A stretch of DNA of 40,690 bases, taken from assembly GCA_019313825.1 (NCBI GenBank), contig JAFDAM010000011.1, forward strand, positions 1 to 40,690, given 5' to 3'. Shown in pieces: positions 22,908 through 39,225 of this stretch. Numbering within the stretch: position 1 is the first letter of the stretch; the number at the start of each line of letters is the position of its first letter. The DNA comes from Deltaproteobacteria bacterium. Its GTDB lineage: Bacteria; Desulfobacterota; DSM-4660; Desulfatiglandales; HGW-15. Made by a program: the position numbers and the translations under genes. The notes under the pieces were generated by a model, which saw nothing but the letters and a program-made list of their open reading frames with translations, was not told the DNA's origin and ran no database searches.

Positions 22908-23231
22908 ATGGATTTTAAGGGATTGGCAGATAGATTAGGCCTGGAGAAAGAAGAGTTTATTGAACTGGCTGAACTCTTTGTAGAGACCGGTTCTTCTGAC
23001 CTCAGACAATTGCAATCAGCAGTTGAACAGGGGGATGTCCAGGAAGTGGTCAAAAAGTCTCATTCCATAAAAGGCGCATCCGGAAATCTGGGTTTTACAG
23101 AGATATTTGGGGTGGCTAAGGACGTTGAAGCGAATGCACGCGAGGATAACCTGGATGGTGCAGTCGGAGCAGTCGTGGTCATCAAAGAAAAAATTGATCA
23201 ATTAGCCCAGGCCATTAATGAAAAAGCGTAG
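22908..23231 (+). CDS. Histidine phosphotransfer (Hpt) protein
   Basis: 107 residues that are almost entirely an Hpt four-helix domain. The phosphoacceptor motif KKSHSIKGASGNLGF (His near residue 48) is clear. Such proteins relay phosphate between receivers and hybrid kinases. A GGAGGAG lies before the ATG. It is the first gene of a set that continues with a receiver-SpoIIE phosphatase, an RsbW-like kinase and a STAS protein, 41 bases ahead of the phosphatase gene. By that order it resembles HptB of Pseudomonas, which feeds the receiver of HsbR. A hybrid kinase that would charge it is not in the window. Confidence 0.85.
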   Translation: MDFKGLADRLGLEKEEFIELAELFVETGSSDLRQLQSAVEQGDVQEVVKKSHSIKGASGNLGFTEIFGVAKDVEANAREDNLDGAVGAVVVIKEKIDQLAQAINEKA

Positions 23232-23272
23232 ATGACTGACAGGTCATCAGTCTCAGGAAGAACTTATTACAG

Positions 23273-24394
23273 ATGAACGATAAACAGAATCTGACTATAC
23301 TACTGGTTGATGATGAACCTGTAGGCGTTAAGGTATTGGAAAAAACCCTGCAAAAGGAGGGGTACAGGACTATTTCTGCCGATAATGGTCCACTGGCACG
23401 AAGACTTGCCTCAAAAAAACAGCCCGATCTCATACTGCTTGACATTATGATGCCGGGCGAAGACGGTTTTGAAGTCGTAAAACTCCTCAAAAAGGATCCC
23501 AGCACAGCATACATCCCGGTCATTTTTCTTACAGGCAAAGACGAGTTGGCCTCCAAGATGATGGGCTTTGACCTTGAGGCTGTTGATTATATAACAAAAC
23601 CGTTCCATGGCCGGGAGGTCGTGGCCCGGGTGCGGCTCCATCTGAAATTGTCTCTGGCCACTAACTCTTTGATAGAAAGTCAGGCAGCGAGACTACGCCA
23701 GATCCAGGATGCACAAACATCCATGCTTGTCACACCTGAAGATCTCCCCGATGCCGGCTTCGGTGTATACTACATGGCATTATTGGAGGCTGGAGGTGAT
23801 TTCTATGATGTCTTACAGATCTCTGATGATATATACGGCTATTTTGTGGCCGATGTGTCAGGGCATGACATAGCCACCAGCTATATCACATCCGCGGTTA
23901 AGGCCCTGTTAAAACAGAACTGTATCCCTATCTATCAACCAGCTGAAAGCATGAAGATGATTAATAACGTCCTGAAGGAGATATTACCAGAAGATAAATA
24001 CCTGACTGCCTGCTATGCCAGGCTGAATCGTGATAAAAAATGTATGACCATCGTGAACGGGGGGCATCCACCTGTTGTTTATCTTCCAAAAGAAGGCCAG
24101 ACCAGGCTCATAGAGATCAAGGGAGATGTCCTAGGCATTTTTAGTGATGTCTATTTCGGAGTTCAGGATATCCGGGTTACTGAGGGTGACCGGTTTTATA
24201 TCTATTCAGACGGGCTTATTGAGAAGCCCGGGCAGAGAAAGGTTTGGACAGAGGGCCTTGACGATCTTTTAAAGGCATGCAGCGGGCTCAGGGAAATCCC
24301 CATCCGTAAGTCTGTGGAGAGATTAAAAGATATGCTGCTGGAAGATACAATCGGATTGGAGGATGACATCGTGGTACTTGGGATTGAGGCGTAA
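23273..24394 (+). CDS. Response regulator with SpoIIE-type PP2C phosphatase output
   Basis: 373 residues. Residues 5-125 are a receiver with LLVDDEP, the phospho-aspartate in ILLDIMMPGEDG, FLTGKD and ITKPF. Residues about 150-373 are a SpoIIE/RsbU-type phosphatase with GGDFYDV, VADVSGHDIATS, VNGGHPPVVYL, YSDGLIE and LEDDIVVLGI, so the metal-binding aspartates are kept. Such proteins dephosphorylate an anti-anti-sigma (STAS) protein when the receiver is activated. The matching kinase and STAS genes follow directly. It corresponds to the receiver and phosphatase parts of Pseudomonas HsbR, with the kinase part as a separate gene. The ATG at 23273 lacks a strong ribosome binding site (AGGAAG about 14 bases upstream), so translation may be coupled to the Hpt gene. 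Confidence 0.9.
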   Translation: MNDKQNLTILLVDDEPVGVKVLEKTLQKEGYRTISADNGPLARRLASKKQPDLILLDIMMPGEDGFEVVKLLKKDPSTAYIPVIFLTGKDELASKMMGFDLEAVDYITKPFHGREVVARVRLHLKLSLATNSLIESQAARLRQIQDAQTSMLVTPEDLPDAGFGVYYMALLEAGGDFYDVLQISDDIYGYFVADVSGHDIATSYITSAVKALLKQNCIPIYQPAESMKMINNVLKEILPEDKYLTACYARLNRDKKCMTIVNGGHPPVVYLPKEGQTRLIEIKGDVLGIFSDVYFGVQDIRVTEGDRFYIYSDGLIEKPGQRKVWTEGLDDLLKACSGLREIPIRKSVERLKDMLLEDTIGLEDDIVVLGIEA

Positions 24395-24483
24395 TAGACC
24401 CTTTGCCTTTTGTAACGATATTTTCCTGTTTCTGAATAGAATTTAAAAATACCGAATGATCAACTACTAACGGTATATTATTA

Positions 24484-24885
24484 ATGGCCAATGACGAGAT
24501 AGAGCTCAAACAATCCTTTTCTGCTACCCTGGAAAATGTTGATAGGGCAGCTGAAAAGATTCAACAGTTCTTGATTAAGACTGGTATAAAAGACCGGTCT
24601 TTTAATATTATCCTCGGGATGAGAGAAGCCCTTATAAATGCTGTTACTCACGGAAATGGAAGTGATAGCAAAAAGAAGGTTACCTTTCGCCTGCAGATGG
24701 AAGGCCATAATCTTATTATGGAAGTGGAGGATGAGGGTCGAGGGTTTGATTGGAATGCCTGTTTGATGAAGCCCCTGCCCTCAAGAGAAGAGTCAGGTCG
24801 TGGGTTGGCTATAATGAAAAGGACTTTTACAAGTATTGAATTCAATGAAAAAGGAAACAGACTTATCCTGGAAAAGATGATTTAA
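24484..24885 (+). CDS. RsbW-like anti-sigma factor / serine kinase
   Basis: 133 residues of the HATPase_c fold as in RsbW and SpoIIAB. The N box is REALINAVTHGNG, the G1 box VEDEGRGFDW and the G2 box ESGRGLAIMK, all intact, so ATP binding is expected. Family members phosphorylate a STAS partner on Ser or Thr and in some cases bind a sigma factor. The STAS gene follows after about 90 bases and the opposing phosphatase precedes it. This is the usual composition of a partner-switching module. No sigma factor gene is adjacent, so the final target is unknown; the nearby flagellar genes suggest a motility factor. Confidence 0.88.
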   Translation: MANDEIELKQSFSATLENVDRAAEKIQQFLIKTGIKDRSFNIILGMREALINAVTHGNGSDSKKKVTFRLQMEGHNLIMEVEDEGRGFDWNACLMKPLPSREESGRGLAIMKRTFTSIEFNEKGNRLILEKMI

Positions 24886-24972
24886 TTATAATAAACCAAG
24901 TAAAAAAATTAAAGCTACAATAATGAATATTGTTGTTTGTATATGAAACAGCATTAATAATTGGAGGAAATT

Positions 24973-25281
24973 ATGGCAACAGCACGGAAAAAATCCACCA
25001 AGAAGACCATCAAGCCAGGAAAAGATATCATAGCGTCCATGGCGGAAGATTTCAAGGCAAAACTACTCAAGCTGGTGGAGCAGGGGATTAAGAATCTCAC
25101 TATAGACTTTAAAGGCGTGAATATGGTGGATTCTGTGGGTCTAGGTGTCCTTATTGCTACCCATAATTCCCTGGACAGTGTCGGAGGAGAATTGACAATC
25201 AAAAATGTCTCCCATGATATCTACAATCTTTTCATGACCATGCGATTGGATCAACATTTTGAAGTGATAAAGGCTGGGTAA
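24973..25281 (+). CDS. STAS-domain anti-sigma factor antagonist
   Basis: 102 residues. A basic N-terminal tail (ATARKKSTKKTIKPGKDI) precedes a STAS domain with the phosphorylation-site motif MVDSVGLGVLIATHNSL, where the Ser after Asp is the residue expected to be phosphorylated by the RsbW-like kinase. The frame can be extended to a TTG at 24961, but ATG 24973 lies directly after TTGGAGGAAATT and is the start. It is the fourth gene of the module and corresponds in order to HsbA of Pseudomonas. The long lysine-rich N-terminal tail is unusual and could contact a nucleic acid or an acidic partner. Confidence 0.88.
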   Translation: MATARKKSTKKTIKPGKDIIASMAEDFKAKLLKLVEQGIKNLTIDFKGVNMVDSVGLGVLIATHNSLDSVGGELTIKNVSHDIYNLFMTMRLDQHFEVIKAG

Positions 25282-25438
25282 TGGGGAGGTCGAATTGAGG
25301 CTAGGCCGGTTGAGCGGGTTTGATATTAAACCATTCAAATTGGCAAACAGTAAAAAGAGTCAACAGTAAGTAAATAAAAAAATGAACAATATTCCGTATA
25401 GGCCTGAGAAAGAATAGAAAAATGAAATGGAGGAGATC

Positions 25439-28400
25439 ATGACCATTCAGGATGATGAAACTTTACGGCTTTATATTGAAGAATCTGAGGACCATTTAAC
25501 TGATATTGAGAATGACCTGCTGGCTATTGAATCGGCAGGGGCTGAAATAGACGAAGAGCTTGTCAATAAGGTCTTCAGGGCTGCACATTCGATTAAAGGA
25601 GGCGCAGGTTTTATGGGACTTAACAGTATCAAGGAGTTGTCCCATAAGATGGAAAATGTCCTGGGAATGATTCGAGAAAGGGAGATGATCCCAAATCCGG
25701 AAATTGTGAATATCCTGCTGTTGGCCTCGGACACCCTCAGAAATCTCATACAGAATGCCGAAAGCAGTAATGAGACGGACATATCGGAACATGTTGAGGC
25801 CCTGGCCGCACTCACTACCAGTTCATTACCTGATAATGAGAGAGATGATGTATCCACAATGATTGATATCTCTTTCCCCGATGGGAAAACGGTATTTAAT
25901 GTAGCTCAGTACGATATCTCCAATGCCGGGAAAAAAGGGAATTATATCTACCTAGTGGAATACGATCTGATACATGATGTTCATAAAAAGAATAGGACTC
26001 CCCTGGACCTCTTAAAGAAAATGGAGGAGAGCGGCAATATTATTGATTGCAAGATTGCTATAAAGGCAGTTGGCAATCTTGAGGACGATACTATCTCCAA
26101 TCGGATACCCTTCCTGGTCCTGTTTGCGACAATACTTGAACCGGAAATGGTTAACGCCCTTTTTGAAATAGACGAAAACAACGTTTTTGTACTAGCCGAA
26201 GACATGACTATCCTGCCAGTTGCACAATCATCCTCAGCTGAAACAATTGTAATCGATGAGCAAGAATCAGAGATCCTGGTAGAAGAGCCTTCACCCGAAA
26301 GGCCTGATATTGAAGCAGAGGAATCTATATCCGCTGTTGTGCCGGTCATGTTGGAAGATGAGAAGACCGAGGGTGTGCAAAAGGATAAGTCCGTGACTGG
26401 ATCAGTAGGATCAGATACAAGCCTCAGGGTACACGTCAGTCTGCTTGATTCCCTGATGACTCTGGCAGGTGAGCTTGTCCTGGGCAGAAATCAACTGCTT
26501 CAGGCGATAAATCATAAAGATCCCCGTGGGATAGAGGCCTCTGGTCAACATCTGGACCTTATTACTTCAGAGTTGCAGGAGGCCATAATGCTGACCCGCA
26601 TGCAGCCTATAGGGAATGTATTTAATAAATTTCCCCGTGTGGTAAGGGATCTTGCCAGGAATTTGGGGAAAGAGGTCATGCTGAAGATCCAAGGGGAAAG
26701 TGTTGAGCTGGATAAGACCATAATAGAGGCGATAAGTGATCCCCTCACCCACCTTGTTCGGAATTCAGTGGATCATGGTATAGAGACTCCCGCGGAAAGA
26801 CGCAAGGCCGGCAAGGATGCAACAGGGCAGGTTTTATTAAAGGCCTATCACGAAGCAGGGCAGGTAAATATTGAGATCCGTGATGACGGCAGGGGTATAG
26901 ACCACAATAAATTGGCATCAATAGCAGTGTCTAAAAACCTGATATCTGAAAAGCAGGTCATGTCTATGTCTGAAAAGGAGAAGGTCAATATGATCTTTCT
27001 CCCGGGCTTTTCTACTGCAGAAAAAGTCAGCGATGTCTCCGGACGAGGCGTTGGCATGGACGTGGTCAAGACAAACCTGGATAAGCTGGGTGGTGTGGTG
27101 AAAATAGATTCACAGCTCGGCGAGGGAACGACCCTCAGGATTAAACTTCCCCTTACATTGGCTATCATACCGAGTCAGATTATTTCCGTGGAGGGAGAGC
27201 GATACGCTATTCCGCAGGTTAACCTGGAGGAGCTTTTCAGGATTCCTGCAGCTCAGGTTAGGGATAGGATAGAGAAGGTCGGAGATGCGGAGGTTGTGAG
27301 GTTGCGCGGTAATCTTCTCCCTCTGATAAGGCTGGCCGATGTTATTGGAATTGAGCGCACCTATGCTGATCCCACTGATAAAAAAGTTAAAAAGGACCGC
27401 CGCAAGAATATCGTGGACAGAAGATCCAGACAGAATCCGTTGTTTAAAGAAGGCCCGCAAGAAGACGCGAATATCTCCACTGGCGATGCACAATTCAATG
27501 CCAGTGATTCACAACCTGAAGTTTCCGGCTCGGACTCCGCAACCCCATCGCCGGGTGACCGTCGCAAAGATTCTGACAGACGCTATCATGCATCTAGCGC
27601 CATCAATATCGTTGTCGTCTATACCGGCGCGTTAAAGTACGGGCTGGTTGTTGATGAACTACATGACTCAGAGGAGATTGTTGTTAAACCAATGGGCCGC
27701 CATATCAGTCAATGTAAAGGTTATGCGGGTGCGACAATTATGGGAGATGGACGCGTGGCGCTTATTCTGGATGTGGCAGGTCTTTCGCAAATGGCCAATC
27801 TGACCTCTGTAGAAGGGACCGATAGGGCCCTGGATGTGGCCCGGGAGCAGCATATGAAGACCGCGAAAGATGTTCAGTCTCTGCTGATATTCAGGAATGC
27901 GGAGGATGAGCAGTTCGCCGTGCCGTTAGGTCTGGTGGAACGTATTGAAAAGATCAAAAGATCTAGCATTGAAGAGGTTGGCGGAAAGAATGTCATTCAA
28001 TATCGAGGGGCGAGCCTCCCCTTGTTTGGGGTAGCGGAAGTAGTCAATGTTAAATCAATGGCGGAAACGGAAGAGCTTTTTGTGGTTATCTTTGTTGTTG
28101 CGGGGAAGGACATTGGACTTATGGCAACACCTCCCATAGACGCCATTGAAGAATCTTTGGTAATTGATGATACTACATTAAAGCAGACCGGAATTATGGG
28201 TTCCACGATTATAGGAGATCACACTACGTTAATAGTCGACATCTTTGGCCTGGTGAAGACATTGAACCCGGAATGGTTCGATGAGCGAGAGGCGGTTCAG
28301 ACACCGGACGGTAAGGTATCCACCATCCTTTATGTGGAGGACTCAAATTTTTTCAGCAACCAGGTCAAAAAATATATGGAGGATGACGGCTATAAAGTCA

Positions 28401-28690
28401 TCGAGGCAGAGGATGGGATGGTGGCATGGGATCTTATGCAGGAACACGGTGAAGAGATAGCTCTTGTGGTTACCGACATTGAGATGCCTAATCTCGATGG
28501 TTTTGGCTTTGTAAAACAATTAAAAGAAGATGATAGATTTTCCAGTTTGCCGGTCATAGCCTTGACCACTATGGCAAGCGAAGAAGATATAGCCAGAGGA
28601 AAAGAGGTTGGTATTAGTGACTATCAGATCAAGCTAGACAAGGAAAAGCTTATGGATAGTATTTACAATCACCTAAAGAAAGTCAATTAA
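25439..28690 (+). CDS. cheA: Chemotaxis histidine kinase CheA with two CheW-like domains and a receiver
   Basis: 1083 residues from ATG 25439, just after GGAGGAG; the frame extends upstream to ATG 25427. Hpt domain: His50 in RAAHSIKGGAGFMGL. The dimerisation domain starts about residue 328 (LMTLAGELVLGRNQLLQ). The kinase domain has HLVRNSVDHGIE (about 437), RDDGRGID and VSGRGVGMD. Two CheW-like domains follow, about 581-805 and 811-945. The first is interrupted by a charged linker of about 75 residues (640-715) with three DRR motifs. The C-terminal receiver (about 962-1083) has VVTDIEMPNLDG but Leu in place of the usual Pro after the conserved Lys. A region at about 135-260 between the Hpt and dimerisation domains looks like a further regulatory domain of unclear kind. 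It phosphorylates CheY and CheB. Hybrid CheA-receiver forms are known from alternative pathways such as FrzE. Confidence 0.95.
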   Translation: MTIQDDETLRLYIEESEDHLTDIENDLLAIESAGAEIDEELVNKVFRAAHSIKGGAGFMGLNSIKELSHKMENVLGMIREREMIPNPEIVNILLLASDTLRNLIQNAESSNETDISEHVEALAALTTSSLPDNERDDVSTMIDISFPDGKTVFNVAQYDISNAGKKGNYIYLVEYDLIHDVHKKNRTPLDLLKKMEESGNIIDCKIAIKAVGNLEDDTISNRIPFLVLFATILEPEMVNALFEIDENNVFVLAEDMTILPVAQSSSAETIVIDEQESEILVEEPSPERPDIEAEESISAVVPVMLEDEKTEGVQKDKSVTGSVGSDTSLRVHVSLLDSLMTLAGELVLGRNQLLQAINHKDPRGIEASGQHLDLITSELQEAIMLTRMQPIGNVFNKFPRVVRDLARNLGKEVMLKIQGESVELDKTIIEAISDPLTHLVRNSVDHGIETPAERRKAGKDATGQVLLKAYHEAGQVNIEIRDDGRGIDHNKLASIAVSKNLISEKQVMSMSEKEKVNMIFLPGFSTAEKVSDVSGRGVGMDVVKTNLDKLGGVVKIDSQLGEGTTLRIKLPLTLAIIPSQIISVEGERYAIPQVNLEELFRIPAAQVRDRIEKVGDAEVVRLRGNLLPLIRLADVIGIERTYADPTDKKVKKDRRKNIVDRRSRQNPLFKEGPQEDANISTGDAQFNASDSQPEVSGSDSATPSPGDRRKDSDRRYHASSAINIVVVYTGALKYGLVVDELHDSEEIVVKPMGRHISQCKGYAGATIMGDGRVALILDVAGLSQMANLTSVEGTDRALDVAREQHMKTAKDVQSLLIFRNAEDEQFAVPLGLVERIEKIKRSSIEEVGGKNVIQYRGASLPLFGVAEVVNVKSMAETEELFVVIFVVAGKDIGLMATPPIDAIEESLVIDDTTLKQTGIMGSTIIGDHTTLIVDIFGLVKTLNPEWFDEREAVQTPDGKVSTILYVEDSNFFSNQVKKYMEDDGYKVIEAEDGMVAWDLMQEHGEEIALVVTDIEMPNLDGFGFVKQLKEDDRFSSLPVIALTTMASEEDIARGKEVGISDYQIKLDKEKLMDSIYNHLKKVN

Positions 28691-28770: not shown

Positions 28771-28779
28771 TAATAATTG

Positions 28780-29244
28780 ATGGGACAATCAGCAGAAAAA
28801 TATTCAGATCAAAGCATAGAAATGGCCACATTTTATGTGGGAGAGGCCCTCTGCGGCATGGATATCCTTAAGGTCCGGGAGGTTAATAAGATGTTGGAGA
28901 TGACAAATGTGCCGCAGGCACCGGATTATGTAAAGGGCATCCTGAACCTGAGGGGCCAGATCGTAACCGTCATTGACCTTGGAAAAAAGATGGGCCTTTC
29001 CGTGACTAATCTAAGTCATGATACAAGGAATATTATTGTCAACTCAAAAAATGAATATATCGGACTTCTGGTTGACAGCATTGGTGATGTGGAGAGAACT
29101 GATTGGGACAAGGTAGAACCGCCTCCTGCAAATATAGGAGGTGTTCAGGGAAAATATTTTGAAGGTGTTTTCAAGACCAAAAACAGTTTGATCGGAATCC
29201 TGGATGTGGAAGAGGTACTTAAGGAGGAAGTGGGGAAGGGTTAG
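28780..29244 (+). CDS. cheW: Chemotaxis coupling protein CheW
   Basis: 154 residues from ATG 28780; a TTG at 28777 opens the frame one codon earlier. The single CheW domain has FYVGEALCGMDILKVREVNK, a TNVPQAPDYVKGILNLRGQ segment, VIDLGKKMGL and LLVDSIGDV, all expected for a scaffold linking receptors to CheA. No receptor is encoded nearby. A degenerate AATGAT repeat lies in the spacer before it. The gene follows cheA and precedes cheB. Confidence 0.95.
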   Translation: MGQSAEKYSDQSIEMATFYVGEALCGMDILKVREVNKMLEMTNVPQAPDYVKGILNLRGQIVTVIDLGKKMGLSVTNLSHDTRNIIVNSKNEYIGLLVDSIGDVERTDWDKVEPPPANIGGVQGKYFEGVFKTKNSLIGILDVEEVLKEEVGKG

Positions 29245-29492: not shown

Positions 29493-30620
29493 ATGAAGGA
29501 TGACAGACCTTTAAGGGTTCTTGTTGTTGATGATACTGTCGTCTATCGAAAGGCCGTAAGCGATATCCTGGCTGAACTGCCGGATGTGGAAGTGGTGGGC
29601 ACGGCCAACAATGGAAAGATTGCCATGTCCAAGATCGCGAATCTGAAACCTGATATCCTCACGCTTGACATTGAGATGCCGGAGATGAATGGACTCGATG
29701 TCCTGGCACGCATAAAGGAAGAAGAGCTTGATGTTGGCGCAATTGTGCTAAGCACGCTTACCCATAAAGGCGGGGAACTGACTATGCAGGCCATGGAATT
29801 AGGGGCCTTTGATTTTATCACAAAGCCGGAAACAGACAGTATGGAAGAGAGCAGAAAAGAGGTAATGAATGCCATCTCTCCCATGCTCAAGGCATTTGCT
29901 CGCCGTCGGGAAATCAAGAGTGTTTTAGGAAGAGGACCTAGTGTCCAAAAAGCAGGAAGAAAAGAAAAACCGACCAATGCCCTGGATGATACGGTCAGGC
30001 GGATGAGCGCAATCGTCGGCGAAAAAAGAATAAGGGCCGAGATCGTGGGGATAGGAATCTCCACAGGTGGTCCAAAGGCCCTGGCACGGATGATGCCTCA
30101 AATTCCAGCTGATATTAACGTCCCTATTCTGATCGTTCAGCATATGCCGGCTATATTCACAAAGTCCCTTGCGAACAACCTTAATTCAAAATGCGCCTTT
30201 GAAGTCAGGGAGGCGCTTGATGGGGAATCCATTTTGCCCAACATTGTCCTCATTGCTCCGGGAGGGAAACAGATGAAGGTAGTGGCCGGTGCGGATGGAA
30301 TAAACAGGATTATCAGAATCACTGATGATCCACCCGAGAACAGTTGTAAACCATCCGTGGATTATCTCTTTCGATCAATTGCCCAACATTATGTAAGGCG
30401 TGCAGCCGGCGTTATCATGACCGGTATGGGGTCAGACGGAACCCGGGGATTGGATCTGATGAAACGAAACGGGGCCTTCATTATTGCACAGGATGAGGAA
30501 ACCTGTGTTGTTTACGGCATGCCCAAGGAGCCTGTCGAGAGTGGAATCGTTGATGTGATCGCGCCGCTTGATCATATTGCAGAAGAGATCATCTGCACAG
30601 TAAGGGGATCAAGTTATTAA
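29493..30620 (+). CDS. cheB: Protein-glutamate methylesterase CheB
   Basis: 375 residues. The N-terminal receiver (VLVVDDTVVYRKAV, LTLDIEMPEMNGLD, FDFITKP) is joined by a basic linker to the methylesterase/deamidase domain, whose catalytic residues lie in GISTGGPKALARMM (Ser), QHMPAIFTKSLANNL (His) and GMGSDGTRGLDLM (Asp). It removes methyl groups from receptors and is activated by CheA. ATG 29493 follows GGGAGCGGAG. The upstream 250-base spacer has degenerate repeats (GGTTAAGGTTAAAGGTTTAAGG and the 14-mer TATCCGGCAATGCC) and no gene. Confidence 0.95.
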   Translation: MKDDRPLRVLVVDDTVVYRKAVSDILAELPDVEVVGTANNGKIAMSKIANLKPDILTLDIEMPEMNGLDVLARIKEEELDVGAIVLSTLTHKGGELTMQAMELGAFDFITKPETDSMEESRKEVMNAISPMLKAFARRREIKSVLGRGPSVQKAGRKEKPTNALDDTVRRMSAIVGEKRIRAEIVGIGISTGGPKALARMMPQIPADINVPILIVQHMPAIFTKSLANNLNSKCAFEVREALDGESILPNIVLIAPGGKQMKVVAGADGINRIIRITDDPPENSCKPSVDYLFRSIAQHYVRRAAGVIMTGMGSDGTRGLDLMKRNGAFIIAQDEETCVVYGMPKEPVESGIVDVIAPLDHIAEEIICTVRGSSY

Positions 30621-30711: not shown

Positions 30712-31551
30712 ATGATAAAAATCACCACCGATGAAATAAAGATTATGTCCCAATATATCCATAAGATGTCCGGGATCGCCCTTGATGATCAAAAGGCCTA
30801 TCTCCTAGAGGCCAGGCTAAACGGACTGGCCGAAGAACAGGGGTGCGCCTCTTATATGGAGTTATATCAAAAGGCCAAAACTGATGATAGTAAGTCTCTG
30901 GAACGAAAGATACTAGATGCCGTGACAACCAATGAAACCCTGTTCTTTCGCGATAAATCACCATTTGAGTTGGTTCGGCACAAGATTCTTCCTGAACTTA
31001 TTGACAGGAGGTCCGCCAAATCTTCCGGGAGTATGCCGCTAAGTGTTCGCATCTGGAGCGCAGCGTGCTCTACAGGACAGGAGGTATACAGTATCGCTAT
31101 CGTTTTGAAGGAGCTTTTGCCTGATCTAAAAAAATATAATATCAAACTATTAGGCACCGATATATCGGATGAAGCAGTTGCCCAGGCCAGCTACGGGCAA
31201 TACAATAAGTTTGCGATTGAGCGGGGTCTTGATGAGGGAAGTTTACGGAAATATTTTTCTCAGGTTGGCGGTAATTGGAAGATCAGGGACGATATCAGGG
31301 CCATGGTTCTTTTTAAAAAATTCAATCTGATGCTCCCGTTTACCGGCCTGGGTAAATACGATATCGTTTTTTGTCGAAATGTGGCTATCTACTTTAACCT
31401 GGAGGACAAGAAGAAGCTTTTTGATAAGATAGCCAATATTTTAGAGCCGGACGGTTATCTGATTATTGGTTCAACTGAAGCATTGACAGGCATCTGTCCC
31501 AGGTTCGTACCCCAAAGGCATTTACGGTCAATTTTTTATCAACTGAAGTAA
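30712..31551 (+). CDS. cheR: Chemotaxis protein methyltransferase CheR
   Basis: 279 residues, typical for CheR without extra TPR repeats. The N-terminal alpha-helical part contains VTTNETLFFRDKSPF, and the SAM-binding domain has WSAACSTGQEVYSIAI, LLGTDIS, MLPFTGLGKYDIVFCRNVAIYF and YLIIGSTEAL. It methylates glutamates of chemoreceptors, opposing CheB, which lies 91 bases upstream. The start at ATG 30712 has no strong ribosome binding site. Confidence 0.95.
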   Translation: MIKITTDEIKIMSQYIHKMSGIALDDQKAYLLEARLNGLAEEQGCASYMELYQKAKTDDSKSLERKILDAVTTNETLFFRDKSPFELVRHKILPELIDRRSAKSSGSMPLSVRIWSAACSTGQEVYSIAIVLKELLPDLKKYNIKLLGTDISDEAVAQASYGQYNKFAIERGLDEGSLRKYFSQVGGNWKIRDDIRAMVLFKKFNLMLPFTGLGKYDIVFCRNVAIYFNLEDKKKLFDKIANILEPDGYLIIGSTEALTGICPRFVPQRHLRSIFYQLK

Positions 31552-32177: not shown

Positions 32178-32625
32178 CATTGATCATTGATCATTTATCA
32201 TTACTCGGGTTGCCGGGTTCACGGTTGATCAATCTCCAATTTTGATCTTTGAACCTTGAACCTGAGTGTGGAGATCGAATCAACATATCTCCTGACATAT
32301 AGAATTGAGTTTATTGTAACTTGAAAACCAAGTCCTTCTCCCTCCAAATTTGGTGGGAATATTCGAGGGGCGTGGGTTCTTTACTAATTCAGCTCTTAAG
32401 TCACCACTCGCAATAGTCAAAAAAATGACACTTTCCCTTTGATATTCTGTCCTATCATATCGCAAATAGTCCCGGATATCTCATCTTTCACATAAGGATA
32501 TTGTACGCTGACCTGATACCTTGCGGTAGTTGTGGCTTCGGACAGTTCTGCGCTCGCATGTTTTTGGTGCGTGAGACTAAATAGGCATAAAAATTGCTTA
32601 TAAATACTAATTGGTGGAAAAAGAG
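32178..32625. other. Intergenic region with two repeat types
   Basis: Right after the receiver gene an inverted run of the AATGATC heptamer repeat occurs (about 32178-32205), then GAACCTTGAACC (about 32253-32264). A 75-base unit at 32311-32385 begins TTATTGTAACTTGAAAACCA and ends TTCGAGGGGCGTGGGTTCTT; both ends recur at 37246-37625. A 71-codon minus-strand frame (32417-32632) is unrecognised and overlaps the following gene, so it is not called. Confidence 0.45.
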
Positions 32626-32907
32626 ATGCCACAACCCACAGCCTACATCAGTTCAGAGATGTCTGAGGGAGGTTGGAGATCAGTCAGAAAATTGTTGAAT
32701 TCCCTTGCAACCAAGAAATTGAATTCGGCAAAGAAGAGGGAATTGGAAGTAACCGTTGCGCTGAGACCTAAAGAGATTGATTATAGATTCCAGAAACGAA
32801 ATGTAGCCCATGAAGATATTGTTCTGCCGATCAGGTGCGTCATTTTTCACCCGGTCCGGGCTGAGGTTTTTGACGAAACCATGACGATTGAGACGGTATT
32901 TCATTAG
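32626..32907 (+). CDS. Hypothetical protein, 93 residues
   Basis: A frame from ATG 32626 (upstream GTG and TTG codons also possible) with GGTGGAAAAAGAG before it encodes 93 residues. The sequence is basic (about a dozen Lys and Arg in the first 60 residues) and contains RSVRKLLNSLATKKLNSAKK and an apparent beta-rich C-terminal half (VLPIRCVIFHPVRAEVF). I recognise no domain, signal peptide or membrane segment. It sits between the receiver protein and the CheZ-like gene on the same strand. Coding is moderately likely from length and the ribosome binding site. The repeats in the region upstream caution that it may be a degenerate remnant. Confidence 0.4.
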   Translation: MPQPTAYISSEMSEGGWRSVRKLLNSLATKKLNSAKKRELEVTVALRPKEIDYRFQKRNVAHEDIVLPIRCVIFHPVRAEVFDETMTIETVFH

Positions 32908-33146: not shown

Positions 33147-34253
33147 ATGAGTAGTATGGTTATGGGTAATTTGGATGGAGACCTTGAGAAGATAGCCTTT
33201 CAAATGGGGGATATTGCACGGATTGTGACTCGTTATGATGCGAACCTTGTCACATCGACTGATGAACAGGGGTTATTTCTAGAGTTGAATGGTAATGTCT
33301 GCCCGGTTCAGGGTCCTGTTGATAAAGAAGATATCAGAGCATATTTCATTATTATTGTATCAGGGGTTTCTTTCAACGTGAGCGATTATCAGATACTCTT
33401 CAACGTGAAAGAGCTTGAAAATGATCTATTATCCGGGACAGATGTGACCGGACATCAACATCTGTGCCGGCGATATGGCACGGCGGATGTGAACAAAGAG
33501 CATGAAGAGACTGATATATCACTTGATGATATAGATGAAAAAATAAAAGCAGGTGAACTCTCTGGGAAAGATATAAAAGATTTGCAAGATGTGATTCATA
33601 AGCTTAGAGAAGGTGAATTTTTCGAACTGCTCACAATGGAATTCTCAAACAAGATAAAGGTCGTGGCAAAGGAACTGATCGACTTTAGAAAGGACATGCA
33701 GAAAAAGATAGAACCTGACATCGTGGAGATGGCAGCCAGAGATATTCCGGAGGCCAGTAATCATCTTGAAGGCATTAATAAAACTCTGGAAGAGAGCACA
33801 ATGAAGATCATGGATATCAATGAAGAGCAGATGGAGATGGCCAATAATCAACAAAAGGTCCTGGAATCGATTATCTCCGGAAACGGCGGTGGAGAAGGGG
33901 GTTTAGCAGACATTACTCTGGATGAGGCATTGAAAGTTATAGAGCAACAGAAGGAAGTATTAGAAAAGATAAGCAACCGGACTTTAACCATGATGGAACC
34001 GCTCAGTTTCCAGGATCTGGTTGGACAGCGCATTCAGAGGATTATCAAAATAGTGAGGTCGATGGAGCTTCGGGTTGAAGAGTTGATTGTCTCCTTTGGC
34101 ATCAAACTTAAAAAACACAGGGAAGATCCGGCAAAGACCTATGAGGATCTTAACCAGGATGTGGATAAATATATGACTGAATTAAAGGGACCTCAAAGAG
34201 AGGGAGAAGGGTTGGATCAGACAGGTATTGATAATCTGCTGGAAAGCCTATAG
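33147..34253 (+). CDS. cheZ: CheZ-like CheY phosphatase with long N-terminal region
   Basis: 368 residues, against about 210 in E. coli CheZ. The C-terminal third is recognisable: LSFQDLVGQRIQRIIKIV near residue 290 carries the Asp and Gln of the phosphatase site, and the final LDQTGIDNLLESL resembles the CheY-binding C-terminal helix. Before it, a long helical stretch (about residues 150-285) would form the coiled dimer. The first roughly 130 residues, with FLELNGNVCPVQGPVDKEDIRAYFIIIV, form an unrelated domain that is not identified. A glycine-rich hinge (NGGGEGGL) precedes the catalytic helix. It is directly followed by cheY, its substrate. GGGGG lies before the ATG. Confidence 0.75.
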   Translation: MSSMVMGNLDGDLEKIAFQMGDIARIVTRYDANLVTSTDEQGLFLELNGNVCPVQGPVDKEDIRAYFIIIVSGVSFNVSDYQILFNVKELENDLLSGTDVTGHQHLCRRYGTADVNKEHEETDISLDDIDEKIKAGELSGKDIKDLQDVIHKLREGEFFELLTMEFSNKIKVVAKELIDFRKDMQKKIEPDIVEMAARDIPEASNHLEGINKTLEESTMKIMDINEEQMEMANNQQKVLESIISGNGGGEGGLADITLDEALKVIEQQKEVLEKISNRTLTMMEPLSFQDLVGQRIQRIIKIVRSMELRVEELIVSFGIKLKKHREDPAKTYEDLNQDVDKYMTELKGPQREGEGLDQTGIDNLLESL

Positions 34254-34348: not shown

Positions 34349-34729
34349 ATGGCTATTGATAAATCGATCAGGGTGTTGGTTGTTGACGATTTTGCCACCA
34401 TGAGACGGATCCTTAAAGGAGTTCTAAAGCAGTTAGGATTCGGCAATATCGTTGAGGCGGATGATGGCGCTATCGCCCTCCAGGAACTCAAAAAAGAGAA
34501 GGTCGGATTGATTGTCTCAGACTGGAACATGCCCAATATGAACGGTCTGGATCTCCTAAAGGAGGTCAGGGGAGATGATAATTTAAAGGATATCCCCTTC
34601 CTGATGGTAACGGCTGAAGGACAGAAAGAGAATGTCGTGCGGGCTGTCCAGGCAGGAGTCAGCAACTATATCGTAAAACCCTTTACCCCTGAGACCTTTA
34701 GTGCAAAATTGGAAAAGGTTTTTGGATAG
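34349..34729 (+). CDS. cheY: Chemotaxis response regulator CheY
   Basis: 126 residues, a single receiver. The acid pocket VVDDF, phospho-Asp in IVSDWNMPNMNGLDLL, Thr in MVTAEG, Tyr and Lys in NYIVKPFTPETF correspond to Asp13, Asp57, Thr87, Tyr106 and Lys109 of E. coli CheY. It should carry the signal from CheA to the flagellar switch, and the CheZ-like protein encoded just upstream should terminate it. A TTTTGG-free short leader with GGGAGG lies before the ATG. The next gene downstream is a broken HDOD protein. Confidence 0.95.
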   Translation: MAIDKSIRVLVVDDFATMRRILKGVLKQLGFGNIVEADDGAIALQELKKEKVGLIVSDWNMPNMNGLDLLKEVRGDDNLKDIPFLMVTAEGQKENVVRAVQAGVSNYIVKPFTPETFSAKLEKVFG

Positions 34730-34860: not shown

Positions 34861-35143
34861 GTAGCCATTTTTTCCGCTTTGGCCGGAATATACTTCCCAA
34901 TAAAGACCTGAGAATGAATTGAATGGTCGAATATTGAGTACCGGATACTACAGCCGGAAAGAGTGATTGTATTGGTGAATTACTCCAACATTTTGATATT
35001 AAAGGGTATTTAATGCTGTTTATCGATTTTGCGTCTCCATTGCACCTTGACTTTATGGAGATCTTCGTGTGTCTGCCTTTTGGCAATAATTTTGCATGTA
35101 CAATAAGCAGTACAAAGATCTCATTTTCGGAAAGGAGAGAGAG
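34861..35143. other. Degenerate non-coding stretch after the broken HDOD gene
   Basis: No frame with family features could be joined to the HDOD start. The region is AT-rich and contains no clear terminator or promoter. It may be decayed coding sequence. Frames on the minus strand here overlap the next real gene and are not called. Confidence 0.4.
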
Positions 35144-35620
35144 ATGAAGATATATGAAGGCCAGGGCCTGATTCCCCCACAGACTAATAAAGGTAATCAT
35201 AAAACGGGTGCAAAGGAAAGCGATTTCAAGAAGATTATGGATCAGGTGAGCTCCCAGCCCGGACAGAAAGAAGCGATTGCCAACAAGGAGAATATAGGAC
35301 CGGTTGAAGGGGGTATCCGTATTCTTCAAGGGGTAGAGGAGATTCAAGGGCCATTAAACGTTGGAGAGAAAAATAAGGTGGTAAAGGTCTTACAGGAGAC
35401 ACTTGATCTTGTTGATTTTTATTCCGCCAGATTAGACGATAAATCATTGCCTGCCAAAGGGATGACTCCCTTGATCAGTCATCTGGAAGACAGACTGGAA
35501 ACCCTGAGGACCATGGAATCCGCCCCTGGAATGCCTGAAAAATTAAGGCCTATTTTATCGGATTTGACGATAACCATCGGAACGGAGATAGCAAAATTCA
35601 AGAGAGGGGATTATTATTAA
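35144..35620 (+). CDS. Conserved-looking hypothetical protein of flagellar neighbourhood
   Basis: 158 residues from ATG 35144, which follows GGAAAGGAGAG; the frame can be extended upstream to 35096 but without a ribosome binding site. It begins MKIYEGQGLIPPQ, has a polar low-complexity first 60 residues (DFKKIMDQVSSQPGQK), then a helical C-terminal domain with LQETLDLVDFYSARLDD and MTPLISHLEDRLETL, ending EIAKFKRGDYY. I recall similar proteins of unknown function beside flagellar genes in related anaerobes, but cannot name a family. It has no signal peptide or membrane segment. The disordered N-terminus and helical C-terminus would fit a small export chaperone or anti-sigma-like factor; this is speculation. 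Confidence 0.7.
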   Translation: MKIYEGQGLIPPQTNKGNHKTGAKESDFKKIMDQVSSQPGQKEAIANKENIGPVEGGIRILQGVEEIQGPLNVGEKNKVVKVLQETLDLVDFYSARLDDKSLPAKGMTPLISHLEDRLETLRTMESAPGMPEKLRPILSDLTITIGTEIAKFKRGDYY

Positions 35621-35758: not shown

Positions 35759-36502
35759 CTAACCCTCTTTATTGATGGGGATAGTAAGGATAATCTGTGA
35801 ACCGGATGGCTCATCCTTACTCATGATTGAGACATTGCCCGCCTTAAATACCATCAGGACCAGCATCATCCTCACATCATTATCTTCGAGTTTGTGATTT
35901 GGAGAAGAGGATATGTCCTTATTCAACGACCCCATAAATTTTTCGGCCAGTTTCTCCTCTTCTGTGGATGTGATTAGCTCCACACATGAATCGTTAAGAG
36001 AAGTTTGCACAGTCAGGGAAGTTATCTCCCGGCTTTCCAACTCCTCAATGACGGACTGCAGAAACCAGCTTAGGGCCAGAACAAAATCTCCTGGAAGATC
36101 GACGAGTGGAGGTAGGTCGTCCTGAAATGACAGTTCTGTACGGACATTATGTTTGAAGTAGAGATTGGTCTGCAGAAAAAGCAGTTCCTGTTGTATGAAA
36201 TAATTCAGGTGCAGAGGTTTATGATAATCTTCATCCTGGATGGCTTTCATGGAAGATATTTTTATTATCTGATCTATCCGGTCAAATTCCTCTTCCATCC
36301 TATTTAAACGCTTGCTTATTTTATTAATCAGATCGTTATCTAACCCGGAGTCGCTTTTAAGGGAGTGATGCGCCATCTCTATATCCAAGCCGAGATTCTG
36401 CAAGGGCCCATTAAGATTATGTATTAGTCCGCCCATTAGCTTTCCAATAGAAGCCATTTTGAACAATCGGATTAAATTATGAATGGGTAATTCAATCAAC
36501 AT
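35759..36502 (-). CDS. Histidine-kinase-like protein with degenerate ATPase region
   Basis: 247 residues. Residues about 16-60 are a histidine-kinase dimerisation domain with the phospho-acceptor motif ASIGKLMGGLIHNLNGPL (His28). A linker and a long helical region follow. The C-terminal part looks like a HATPase_c fold, with an ALSWFLQSVIEELES helix where the N box should be. The asparagine of the N box is missing, and a typical G box (DxGxG) is not visible. It is therefore probably not an active kinase and may act as a phosphotransfer or docking protein. There is no sensor domain. The gene start overlaps the PilZ gene end by 11 bases, so the two are translationally coupled. Confidence 0.65.
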   Translation of the reverse strand: MLIELPIHNLIRLFKMASIGKLMGGLIHNLNGPLQNLGLDIEMAHHSLKSDSGLDNDLINKISKRLNRMEEEFDRIDQIIKISSMKAIQDEDYHKPLHLNYFIQQELLFLQTNLYFKHNVRTELSFQDDLPPLVDLPGDFVLALSWFLQSVIEELESREITSLTVQTSLNDSCVELITSTEEEKLAEKFMGSLNKDISSSPNHKLEDNDVRMMLVLMVFKAGNVSIMSKDEPSGSQIILTIPINKEG

Positions 36503-37076
36503 TGTTATCCTCCTGGCCTAACTTTTTTTTCCGTATATCATTTCTCTGTTTTTGAAAAACCACACTTACAATCGAGTCCCGCGCATCTTCATCAATCTGA
36601 ATGATTCTAGCGGCAATAACAAAGCCGTTATCCTTGTCCTCGACCCTTAAAACTTCAGCTATTAAATCCATCTGATACTGGAAAGTCCCTGGCATAATCA
36701 GGTTCATCTTGAGAAGAGTATTAGTGTCCAGATGTTCCTTGGTTATGAATTTCAGGCCTGATGCGCTAATCTCTATGATGTCATCCTGATTGGTCTGGGA
36801 TTCCATAGCCTTGGAGTGCAGCTGATCAATGATATAATCAAGTTTATTATTGATATATTGAAGAGACCGATAAAGGTGCTCTTCCTTTGAACCGGGGGAC
36901 GCCAGTTCTACGAATTCATTAATGGGACCCGGAAGATCGTCTTGTCTGCACAGGGTGCCGGCCATCCCTCCTTTCACCATTGCTGTCTCCTCCTTGTTAA
37001 GCACCTGCCATCTGACCGGAACTATCATCTCAACTCTAAAATGTCTGCGTTTGTTTATAGAACTCATTGTTTTCAC
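36492..37076 (-). CDS. PilZ-domain protein, probable c-di-GMP receptor
   Basis: 194 residues from GTG 37076; ATG 37067 is an alternative. Neither has a strong ribosome binding site. The protein carries the two PilZ motifs split by an insertion: KRRHFRVEM at about residues 9-17 (the RxxxR motif) and IEISASGLKF near residue 102 ([D/N]xSxxG-like). The C-terminal half is the beta-barrel (MDLIAEVLRVEDKDNGFVIAARI). The intervening 85 residues are predicted helical. Such proteins bind c-di-GMP and modulate flagellar or adhesion functions. It is followed by the kinase-like gene, which it overlaps, and lies near an HD-GYP phosphodiesterase gene, so the three probably share a pathway. Confidence 0.8.
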   Translation of the reverse strand: MKTMSSINKRRHFRVEMIVPVRWQVLNKEETAMVKGGMAGTLCRQDDLPGPINEFVELASPGSKEEHLYRSLQYINNKLDYIIDQLHSKAMESQTNQDDIIEISASGLKFITKEHLDTNTLLKMNLIMPGTFQYQMDLIAEVLRVEDKDNGFVIAARIIQIDEDARDSIVSVVFQKQRNDIRKKKLGQEDNNVD

Positions 37077-37674: not shown

Positions 37675-39225
37675 TCAAGAGATAAAAACGGAAAGGGCTG
37701 CTTCGACCACCTCGGGATCAAACTGGGTGCAGCGATTATATTTTAATTCCTGAAGACATTTTGAAAAGGGAAGGGCCTTGCGATACGCCCTATCGGAGCT
37801 CATGGCATCAAAGGCATCTGCCACGGCAAGGATCCTGGAAAGAATGGGAATATTCTCCTCCTTGAGATTATCCGGGTATCCCCTGCCGTCCCATCTTTCA
37901 TGATGGTTCCTGATAATGGCCAATTCTTCAGGGTCCAAACCTAAGGGTGCGACTATATTTACTCCGATCAAGGGGTGGGATTTGATATGTTGGAATTCAT
38001 CTTCCGTCAAATTGCCGGGTTTGTTCAGGATACTGTCGTTAATACCGATCTTGCCTATATCGTGAATGGGACAGGTTGATTTGAGCCTTTGAAGATCATC
38101 ATGATTGCATCCCATTTTACGGGCGATCTTTAGAGATAATTCAGTAACCCTGGAGGAGTGCTGTTGTGTATAGGGGTCCTTGGCCTCAATGGCGCTTACA
38201 AGGGACATAAGGGTAGCCATGAGACTCTGATTGAGATTATCATAAAGGGCCATATTTTCGATGTTCAGGGCGGCTTTCTCCGCGAGGAACCTTAAAATGA
38301 ATTCATCCTCCTCATCAAATGAGTTTTGTCCCTTCTTTTGGGCGATAAAAAGCACGCCAAAAGGCTCATTTCTGATGTCAAAAGGCACTGATATCAAGCC
38401 ATTATTACGGGCGATCTTCTCCAGGGTTATTCCTTTTTCGGCTGATTCTCCGAGATGGGTATCGATAAATTCCCTGTCCAGTATCCTCTTGCCTTCAGTA
38501 TTGAAATGGAGATTAATCTTGATTCCCGGATCCATGCCTTCAAAACCCTTCTGAGCCAGAGTCAGAAGGTTAGAACGACCCTCATCGTAGATCATGAAGC
38601 AGGCCTTTTGGGCATAGCACGATTCAATGGCCTTATTGATCAGGTATGGATAAAGATCGGTCGAGCGGTTTATCCTCGATAAAGAGTCCACAATATTATA
38701 CATGATGGTCTGAAGCCTGATCTTTTTTTCCAGTTGATTGTTTAGCTTTTCTACCTCTTTTTTTTCTTCCAGTTCCTGATGGAGCAGCCAGTTTTTTTCC
38801 ATTAAGAGATGAAATCTCTGTATCCTCTCCAGAATTATCTTTATATCCTGAAGACGAAAGGGCTTTACCAGGAAATCCGAAGCCCCTTTATGCATCGCAT
38901 CTATAACAACATCCATTGAGGGATAGCCGGTCATAATGATGACACTTGTGATCTGATAATATTCGTGGATCTTTTGAAGGGTCTGTATACCGTTAATCCC
39001 GGGCATCATAAGGTCAATAAAGACATAATCATACCGGTTCCGTTCTGTCTCGTTCAGGGCATTTTCACCGCTATCAGCCGTTGTAACATTAACGATACCC
39101 AGATTCTCTAAAAAAAGCTTAAGGGTCTCACGGACCATGGGTTCGTCATCAACCACCAAGACCTGCAAAGACTGAAGGTTAGGACTGGTAGATGTTATAT
39201 GTTCTTGAAAAGCCTCGACTTGCAC
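37675..39225 (-). CDS. Response regulator with GAF and HD-GYP domains (c-di-GMP phosphodiesterase)
   Basis: 516 residues from GTG 39225. Residues 15-140: receiver with VLVVDDEPMVRETLK, YVFIDLMMPGINGIQ and FLVKPFRL. Residues about 170-320: a GAF-like domain. Residues about 330-516: HD-GYP domain with CPIHDIGKIGINDSIL, HHERWDGRGYPD and ILAVADAFDAMSSDRAYR, all metal and catalytic motifs intact. It should hydrolyse c-di-GMP when activated. GAGG lies 10 bases before GTG. The start overlaps the end of the upstream receiver-SHOCT gene by 31 bases, which suggests coupled translation. There is a helical linker between receiver and GAF. Confidence 0.9.
   Translation of the reverse strand: MQVEAFQEHITSTSPNLQSLQVLVVDDEPMVRETLKLFLENLGIVNVTTADSGENALNETERNRYDYVFIDLMMPGINGIQTLQKIHEYYQITSVIIMTGYPSMDVVIDAMHKGASDFLVKPFRLQDIKIILERIQRFHLLMEKNWLLHQELEEKKEVEKLNNQLEKKIRLQTIMYNIVDSLSRINRSTDLYPYLINKAIESCYAQKACFMIYDEGRSNLLTLAQKGFEGMDPGIKINLHFNTEGKRILDREFIDTHLGESAEKGITLEKIARNNGLISVPFDIRNEPFGVLFIAQKKGQNSFDEEDEFILRFLAEKAALNIENMALYDNLNQSLMATLMSLVSAIEAKDPYTQQHSSRVTELSLKIARKMGCNHDDLQRLKSTCPIHDIGKIGINDSILNKPGNLTEDEFQHIKSHPLIGVNIVAPLGLDPEELAIIRNHHERWDGRGYPDNLKEENIPILSRILAVADAFDAMSSDRAYRKALPFSKCLQELKYNRCTQFDPEVVEAALSVFIS

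Follow-up and report, generated by a model that had tools for sequence, protein, structure and literature searches.

A predicted phosphorelay-controlled partner switch encoded directly ahead of cheA, and its possible action on the chemotaxis kinase

Introduction

Sigma factors are the known targets of partner switches, joined in a few systems by c-di-GMP enzymes, which raises the question of what such a switch regulates when its genes stand immediately ahead of a chemotaxis operon. This is the situation in the window, as we call the whole 40,690-nucleotide stretch of deltaproteobacterial DNA that was analysed (contig JAFDAM010000011.1). Four same-strand genes at 22908–25281, identified from the list of open reading frames and from Pfam, encode an Hpt protein, a receiver-SpoIIE phosphatase, a serine kinase and a STAS protein, in that order. 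The reading we favor, which we regard as evenly poised between right and wrong, is that these make up a partner switch under phosphorelay control, with STAS as the output that acts on the adjacent CheA through a putative contact. If this is true, CheA would be an added direct target of partner switching.

Results

Gene cluster and conserved motifs

All genes from the Hpt gene through cheY lie on the plus strand. The first (22908..23231; Pfam Hpt, 5.2e-14) encodes a stand-alone phosphotransfer protein of 107 aa with its phospho-His within SHSIKG; an Hpt gene likewise precedes that of the receiver-SpoIIE protein in loci L041–L045 and in the class-B loci. The receiver-SpoIIE (PP2C) phosphatase, of 373 aa (23273..24394; Pfam Response_reg 7e-27, SpoIIE 2.3e-31), has as its nearest full-length solved relative 3eq2, a 394-aa receiver-phosphatase response regulator, and matches NCBIfam RssB_Pseudo below the cut-off. 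As the initial annotation had it, the kinase is a separate gene (24484..24885; Pfam HATPase_c_2, 4.3e-19): its product, 133 aa of SpoIIAB/RsbW type, stands apart from the receiver-SpoIIE protein and matches NCBIfam spIIAB at 9e-10, which is below the cut-off. The proposed output is a STAS protein of 102 aa (24973..25281; Pfam STAS, 6.9e-14), with a predicted phospho-acceptor Ser in DSVGLG and with RsbV and SpoIIAA as its best solved relatives; the ATG at 24973, with GGAGG at 24963, is a likelier start than the TTG at 24961.

The end of the STAS gene is separated by 145 bp from cheA (25427..28690), for which the ATG at 25439 is a likelier start than 25427. CheA is made up of P1 (Hpt), P2-like, dimerisation, kinase, CheW-like and C-terminal receiver parts, with Pfam detecting Hpt, H-kinase_dim, HATPase_c, CheW and the C-terminal receiver; comparison of the P2-like part with solved sequences gave no match. 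Downstream follow cheW (28777..29244; Pfam CheW, 1.3e-34), cheB (29493..30620; CheB_methylest, 1.2e-64, plus a receiver), cheR (30712..31551; CheR, 3e-54), a receiver gene, a cheZ-like phosphatase gene (33147..34253; CheZ, 2.1e-11) and a cheY-like receiver gene (34349..34729), an open reading frame whose 82% identical orthologue adjoins CheZ in genomes G002 and G016. Open reading frames and Pfam agree on the four-gene order leading directly into cheA that the initial annotation described. The che cluster further encodes two small conserved proteins that Pfam does not recognize (32611–32907 and 35096–35620), and family members have their orthologues in the corresponding position. A promoter and terminator scan gave promoters in a number no higher than chance. 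The source assembly is fragmentary (65% complete, 158 contigs), so the absence of a gene elsewhere in this genome is little proof.

The catalytic motifs are all intact in the window, as had been claimed, and are conserved across relatives. They comprise SHSIKG in Hpt; LLVDDE, LLDIMMPG and TKPF in the receiver; GGDFYD, VADVSGHD, YSDGLIE and EDDIVVLG in the PP2C domain; MREALINAVTHG, EDEGRG and ESGRGL in the kinase; and DSVGLG in STAS. Counted over filled alignment cells, the PP2C Asp residues are kept in 80/80, 80/80 and 75/75 relatives, and the N-box Glu and Asn of the kinase in 71/71. The receiver Asp is present in 74 of 75 readable relatives, the Hpt His in all 75 Hpt matches, and the STAS Ser in all 51 switch-bearing loci. 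Loss of this Ser along with the enzymes, looked for as a test of cognate phosphorylation, was not seen: it is retained in 10 of 11 STAS proteins without the enzymes, with Ala in the remaining one (L237).

A His in a C-terminal MRLDxHF motif is found in 51 of 57 STAS proteins from switch-bearing genomes versus 0 of 11 from those without the switch (Fisher 8e-9), although for two of these 11 (L244 and L257) the upstream sequence is too short to establish the absence of the enzymes. On the tree, this reduces to five independent contrasts, approximately 3.6 of them in the same direction and none in the opposite one (sign test, p ~0.125). Because the independent contrasts are so few, a tie between this His and the presence of the switch is only suggestive.

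Linkage in relatives

When species genomes were scanned with the phosphatase family, 76 loci were found; the scan was seeded from che-linked sequences and is biased to that extent. In 40 of these a STAS domain lies 3' of the phosphatase and kinase, and a CheA-type gene follows STAS after 9–214 bp in 38 of the 39 readable loci, the exception being L074 (L042, where the contig stops inside STAS, was left out). The linkage set takes in Desulfobacterales, Desulfobulbaceae, Desulfovibrionales, a member of the Bryobacterales (Acidobacteriota) and several Phycisphaerae (Planctomycetota). Where the order has been rearranged, STAS stays with CheA: in L047 and L056 kinase and STAS are 2.6–3.8 kb apart while STAS and CheA remain together, and in the acidobacterium Sulfidibacter corallicola (L062) STAS, cheA and further che genes come before the phosphatase and kinase. 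The gene order is thus strongly conserved in relatives, as the initial annotation needed it to be, which rules out chance and supports a functional tie of the switch to the chemotaxis operon.

The Sulfidibacter locus also encodes a HEAT-repeat/receiver protein, recognized by Pfam, right before the receiver-SpoIIE protein (L062:8346–9971), and a protein of similar size takes the same place in a member of the Neomarinimicrobiota (L085:3399–5021).

Six genomes of Desulfoluna and its relatives have the Hpt-phosphatase-kinase triad and orthologues of STAS and CheA, all unlinked. The parts are retained together in these genomes even without linkage. STAS is here usually a single gene between those for an amidase and an apolipoprotein N-acyltransferase. 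Since it sits apart from cheA in this clade, STAS might also act on a protein other than CheA. The Desulfobacterales loci L147–L151 and L153, which have no che linkage, likewise share a synteny in which the STAS orthologue is a lone gene close to those for apolipoprotein N-acyltransferase and/or an amidase. A further chemotaxis link of the STAS family is found at L152:7094–8062, where a CheC/CheX-like phosphatase and a receiver come right before a STAS orthologue.

The STAS-CheA pair in an independent genome sample

Because the phosphatase scan had been seeded with che-linked sequences, an independent sample of 297 genomes of the phylum was examined by separate CheA and STAS searches, with the window's own genome excluded from the counts. 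CheA was found in 29 other genomes and STAS in 27, with both present in 18, as compared with 2.6 expected (Fisher 4e-15). Counted per genus, which only partly removes kinship, co-occurrence is seen in 11 versus 1.8 expected (1e-8). In 21 of the 25 genomes with readable STAS flanks, STAS stands immediately before a CheA-type gene, and two more have one receiver gene between them. A STAS-receiver-CheA order occurs in L269 and L270 (genomes G259 and G099), where the Asp before the STAS Ser is replaced by Gly (GSAG). The matches to STAS on plasmids were distant ones only.

The enzymes are less constant. STAS lies directly upstream of CheA in 18 genomes (including G372, which falls below the STAS search cut-off); of these, eight have phosphatase and kinase at that place, eight clearly do not, and in two the contig ends. 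Two members of the window's own family, G009 and G016, carry a syntenic locus reading ADH<Hpt>STAS>CheA>CheW>CheB>CheR...CheZ, from which both enzyme genes are missing. As these and other genomes keep STAS and CheA without the enzymes alongside, gene order indicates that STAS and CheA are the tighter pair, and the kinase and phosphatase the detachable part. Most genomes without linked enzymes do encode other SpoIIE and HATPase_c_2 proteins. In 11 of the 29 genomes with an orthologous CheA no STAS was found adjoining, so CheA can function without it. On the CheA tree, STAS adjacency spans deep branches and requires six changes, versus 14.9 in shuffles.

Gene fusions and phosphorelay input

Kinase and STAS are joined within one open reading frame in 20 loci, mostly of Desulfovibrionales, with Pfam confirming the fusion in L075 and L043. 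AlphaFold gives a confident two-domain model of the fused protein (pLDDT 87, pTM 0.84), with SpoIIAB and SpoIIAA/RsbV as the nearest solved folds, and the fusion supports the predicted pairing of the kinase with its substrate. In these operons P1 and a P2-like domain, the N-terminal portion of CheA, form a separate protein. In Solidesulfovibrio a module of this kind, Hpt-P2-like and homologous to the N-terminus of the window's CheA, ends in a STAS_2 domain by Pfam. The model of this module matches CheA P1/P2 and STAS in fold, although its pTM of only 0.58 makes the domain arrangement unsure. This second fusion supports a contact of STAS with the phosphotransfer region of CheA by way of a second, divergent STAS_2 domain that is not an orthologue of the window's STAS.

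The split of CheA in Desulfovibrionales can be seen at L075:11903–13078, where an Hpt-P2-like protein with a STAS_2 C-terminus precedes a second CheA with an Hpt of its own; homologues of this protein occur in L072, L076–L079, L084 and L089–L099.

As for the input, a gene for a hybrid histidine kinase lies directly before the Hpt gene in the close relatives L041 and L043, and none lies beside the module in the window. One family (L035, L111, L112) has a degenerate receiver; this family also lacks Hpt, and a chemoreceptor precedes the genes. Such co-variation of receiver decay and Hpt loss, seen in a single clade, fits a transfer of phosphate from Hpt to the receiver.

Discussion

The adjacency of STAS and cheA across several phyla suggests that the chemotaxis machinery itself, and not solely a flagellar sigma factor, is what the switch tunes. 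In the mechanism we propose, a hybrid histidine kinase would pass phosphate to Hpt and from there to the receiver domain of the SpoIIE phosphatase. STAS would be phosphorylated by the serine kinase at the DSVGLG Ser, and the phosphatase would take the phosphate off again. One of these two forms of STAS would then dock on CheA, with the P1/P2-like N-terminal part as the probable site, and change either the kinase output of CheA or the flow of phosphate to CheY/CheB. We infer the direction of phosphate flow, which form of STAS binds, and that CheA is its physical target; CheA appears the most likely target because of its persistent pairing with STAS and because of the precedent of CheS, a STAS protein that binds CheA. 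A broader proposal, which we put forward tentatively and hold to be somewhat less than probable, is that of a cross-phylum chemosensory class in which a Ser-phosphorylated STAS, set by the phosphorelay through its kinase and PP2C phosphatase, directly gates CheA, adding a second, slower signal on the array.

If the component types are taken as the guide, the switch would work as in Pseudomonas, where HsbA binds FlgM or HsbD according to its phosphorylation state (PMC6482189, PMC5085249): dephosphorylated STAS would bind FlgM and free sigma-28, and che linkage would reflect no more than shared motility regulation. FlgM is encoded by the window's genome and by eight of the ten others that were checked, and the Pseudomonas hptB cluster is itself near flagellar, cheW and cheR genes (PMC5085249). 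However, we consider this unlikely, as neither flgM nor fliA was recognized next to the module in any locus that was read, cheA being the neighbor that is kept; the fused kinase that defines HsbR is absent; and G122 and G125, which have the triad and STAS, gave no FlgM match, although the G122 assembly is small and probably incomplete. A related possibility, that STAS controls a c-di-GMP enzyme or sensor in the manner of HsbA-HsbD (PMC5085249) or SiaC-SiaD (PMC9239204), was part of the motile/sessile switch integrating chemotaxis and c-di-GMP that the initial annotation envisaged, with PilZ and HD-GYP genes beside the module. These genes are real: a PilZ-domain protein (36492..37076, minus strand; Pfam PilZ, 1.1e-7) and a receiver-GAF-HD-GYP protein (37675..39225, minus strand; Pfam HD_5 5e-34, Response_reg 7e-30) keep their positions in L301–L303, and together with FlaG form a block that is conserved in three other members of the window's family. 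However, the block is divergent, on the opposite strand and ~11 kb from the switch; it persists in G009 and G016 despite the missing enzymes; and outside the window's family the neighbors of the module vary while cheA is constant. The block marks a flagellar setting and gives no evidence of switch action through c-di-GMP. The chemotaxis half of the integrated switch is supported by conserved linkage; its c-di-GMP half depends on these distant genes, and we regard a c-di-GMP target as improbable.

We attach equally little probability to a classic sigma partner switch, in which the SpoIIAB/RsbW-like kinase would sequester a sigma factor encoded elsewhere until STAS releases it. The kinase and STAS are nearest to SpoIIAB/RsbW and SpoIIAA/RsbV by both fold and sequence, and several sigma-70-family genes are present in the window's genome. 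However, no sigma gene was recognized in the gene list of the cluster, whose open reading frames were partly scanned, or beside the modules of relatives, and the retention of STAS with CheA in the absence of the kinase is unexpected if a kinase-sigma pair is the output. It could also be argued that the linkage is only an ancestral operon, without direct functional coupling, given that operons may be inherited passively and that the Desulfoluna clade has split the parts. Such inheritance is hard to reconcile with linkage in several phyla, with independent rearrangements after which STAS is still beside CheA, and with the fusions, which makes this the explanation that we consider very improbable.

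Should STAS act on CheA, a signal from the phosphorelay could reset taxis with no need for new transcription. The proposal offers a testable role for the STAS proteins that are frequent in che operons, and the culturable Desulfovibrionales, in which kinase and STAS are one polypeptide, are a ready system.

Comparison with known systems

No description of a SpoIIE-kinase-STAS-cheA operon was found in the literature, which is weak evidence of absence, as subscription papers were thinly covered. The HptB-HsbR-HsbA pathway of Pseudomonas aeruginosa, to which the initial annotation likened the locus, shares with it a stand-alone Hpt, encoded next to the phosphatase in both, a receiver joined to PP2C, a serine kinase, a STAS protein with a conserved Ser (here the predicted acceptor) and a neighborhood of motility genes. 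The likeness holds for the types of component but not for the architecture: HsbR unites receiver, PP2C and kinase in one protein, while here a gene of its own encodes the kinase, relatives have it separate or fused to STAS, and the conserved neighbor is cheA. Strict membership in this family is ruled out by the lack of a kinase domain in the receiver-PP2C protein.

The RsbU/RsbW/RsbV and SpoIIE/SpoIIAB/SpoIIAA systems have in common with the window's switch the three types of enzyme and substrate (PP2C, SpoIIAB-like kinase and STAS) and provide the nearest solved folds, but the switch described here has receiver input via Hpt, and no sigma factor was recognized among the scanned genes of its operon. 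SiaABCD of P. aeruginosa shares PP2C, kinase and a STAS protein with a non-sigma target. That target is a diguanylate cyclase, phosphorylation is on threonine, and no receiver or Hpt input is known. In Campylobacterota, a 2022 survey predicted REC-PP2C-kinase/STAS systems near chemoreceptors and proposed that they feed a chemosensory component (PMC9239204); those consist of one bifunctional protein with a chemoreceptor, whereas in the window, from another phylum, separate proteins are fixed beside cheA. Similar to the output that we propose is CheS of Sinorhizobium meliloti and other alphaproteobacteria, likened here by domain content and position: it is small, consists of STAS only and has its gene in the che cluster close to cheA, and in S. 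meliloti it binds CheA and alters CheA-CheY binding (reviewed in PMC12654446). Compared with CheS, the window's STAS has a dedicated serine kinase, a PP2C phosphatase and phosphorelay input.
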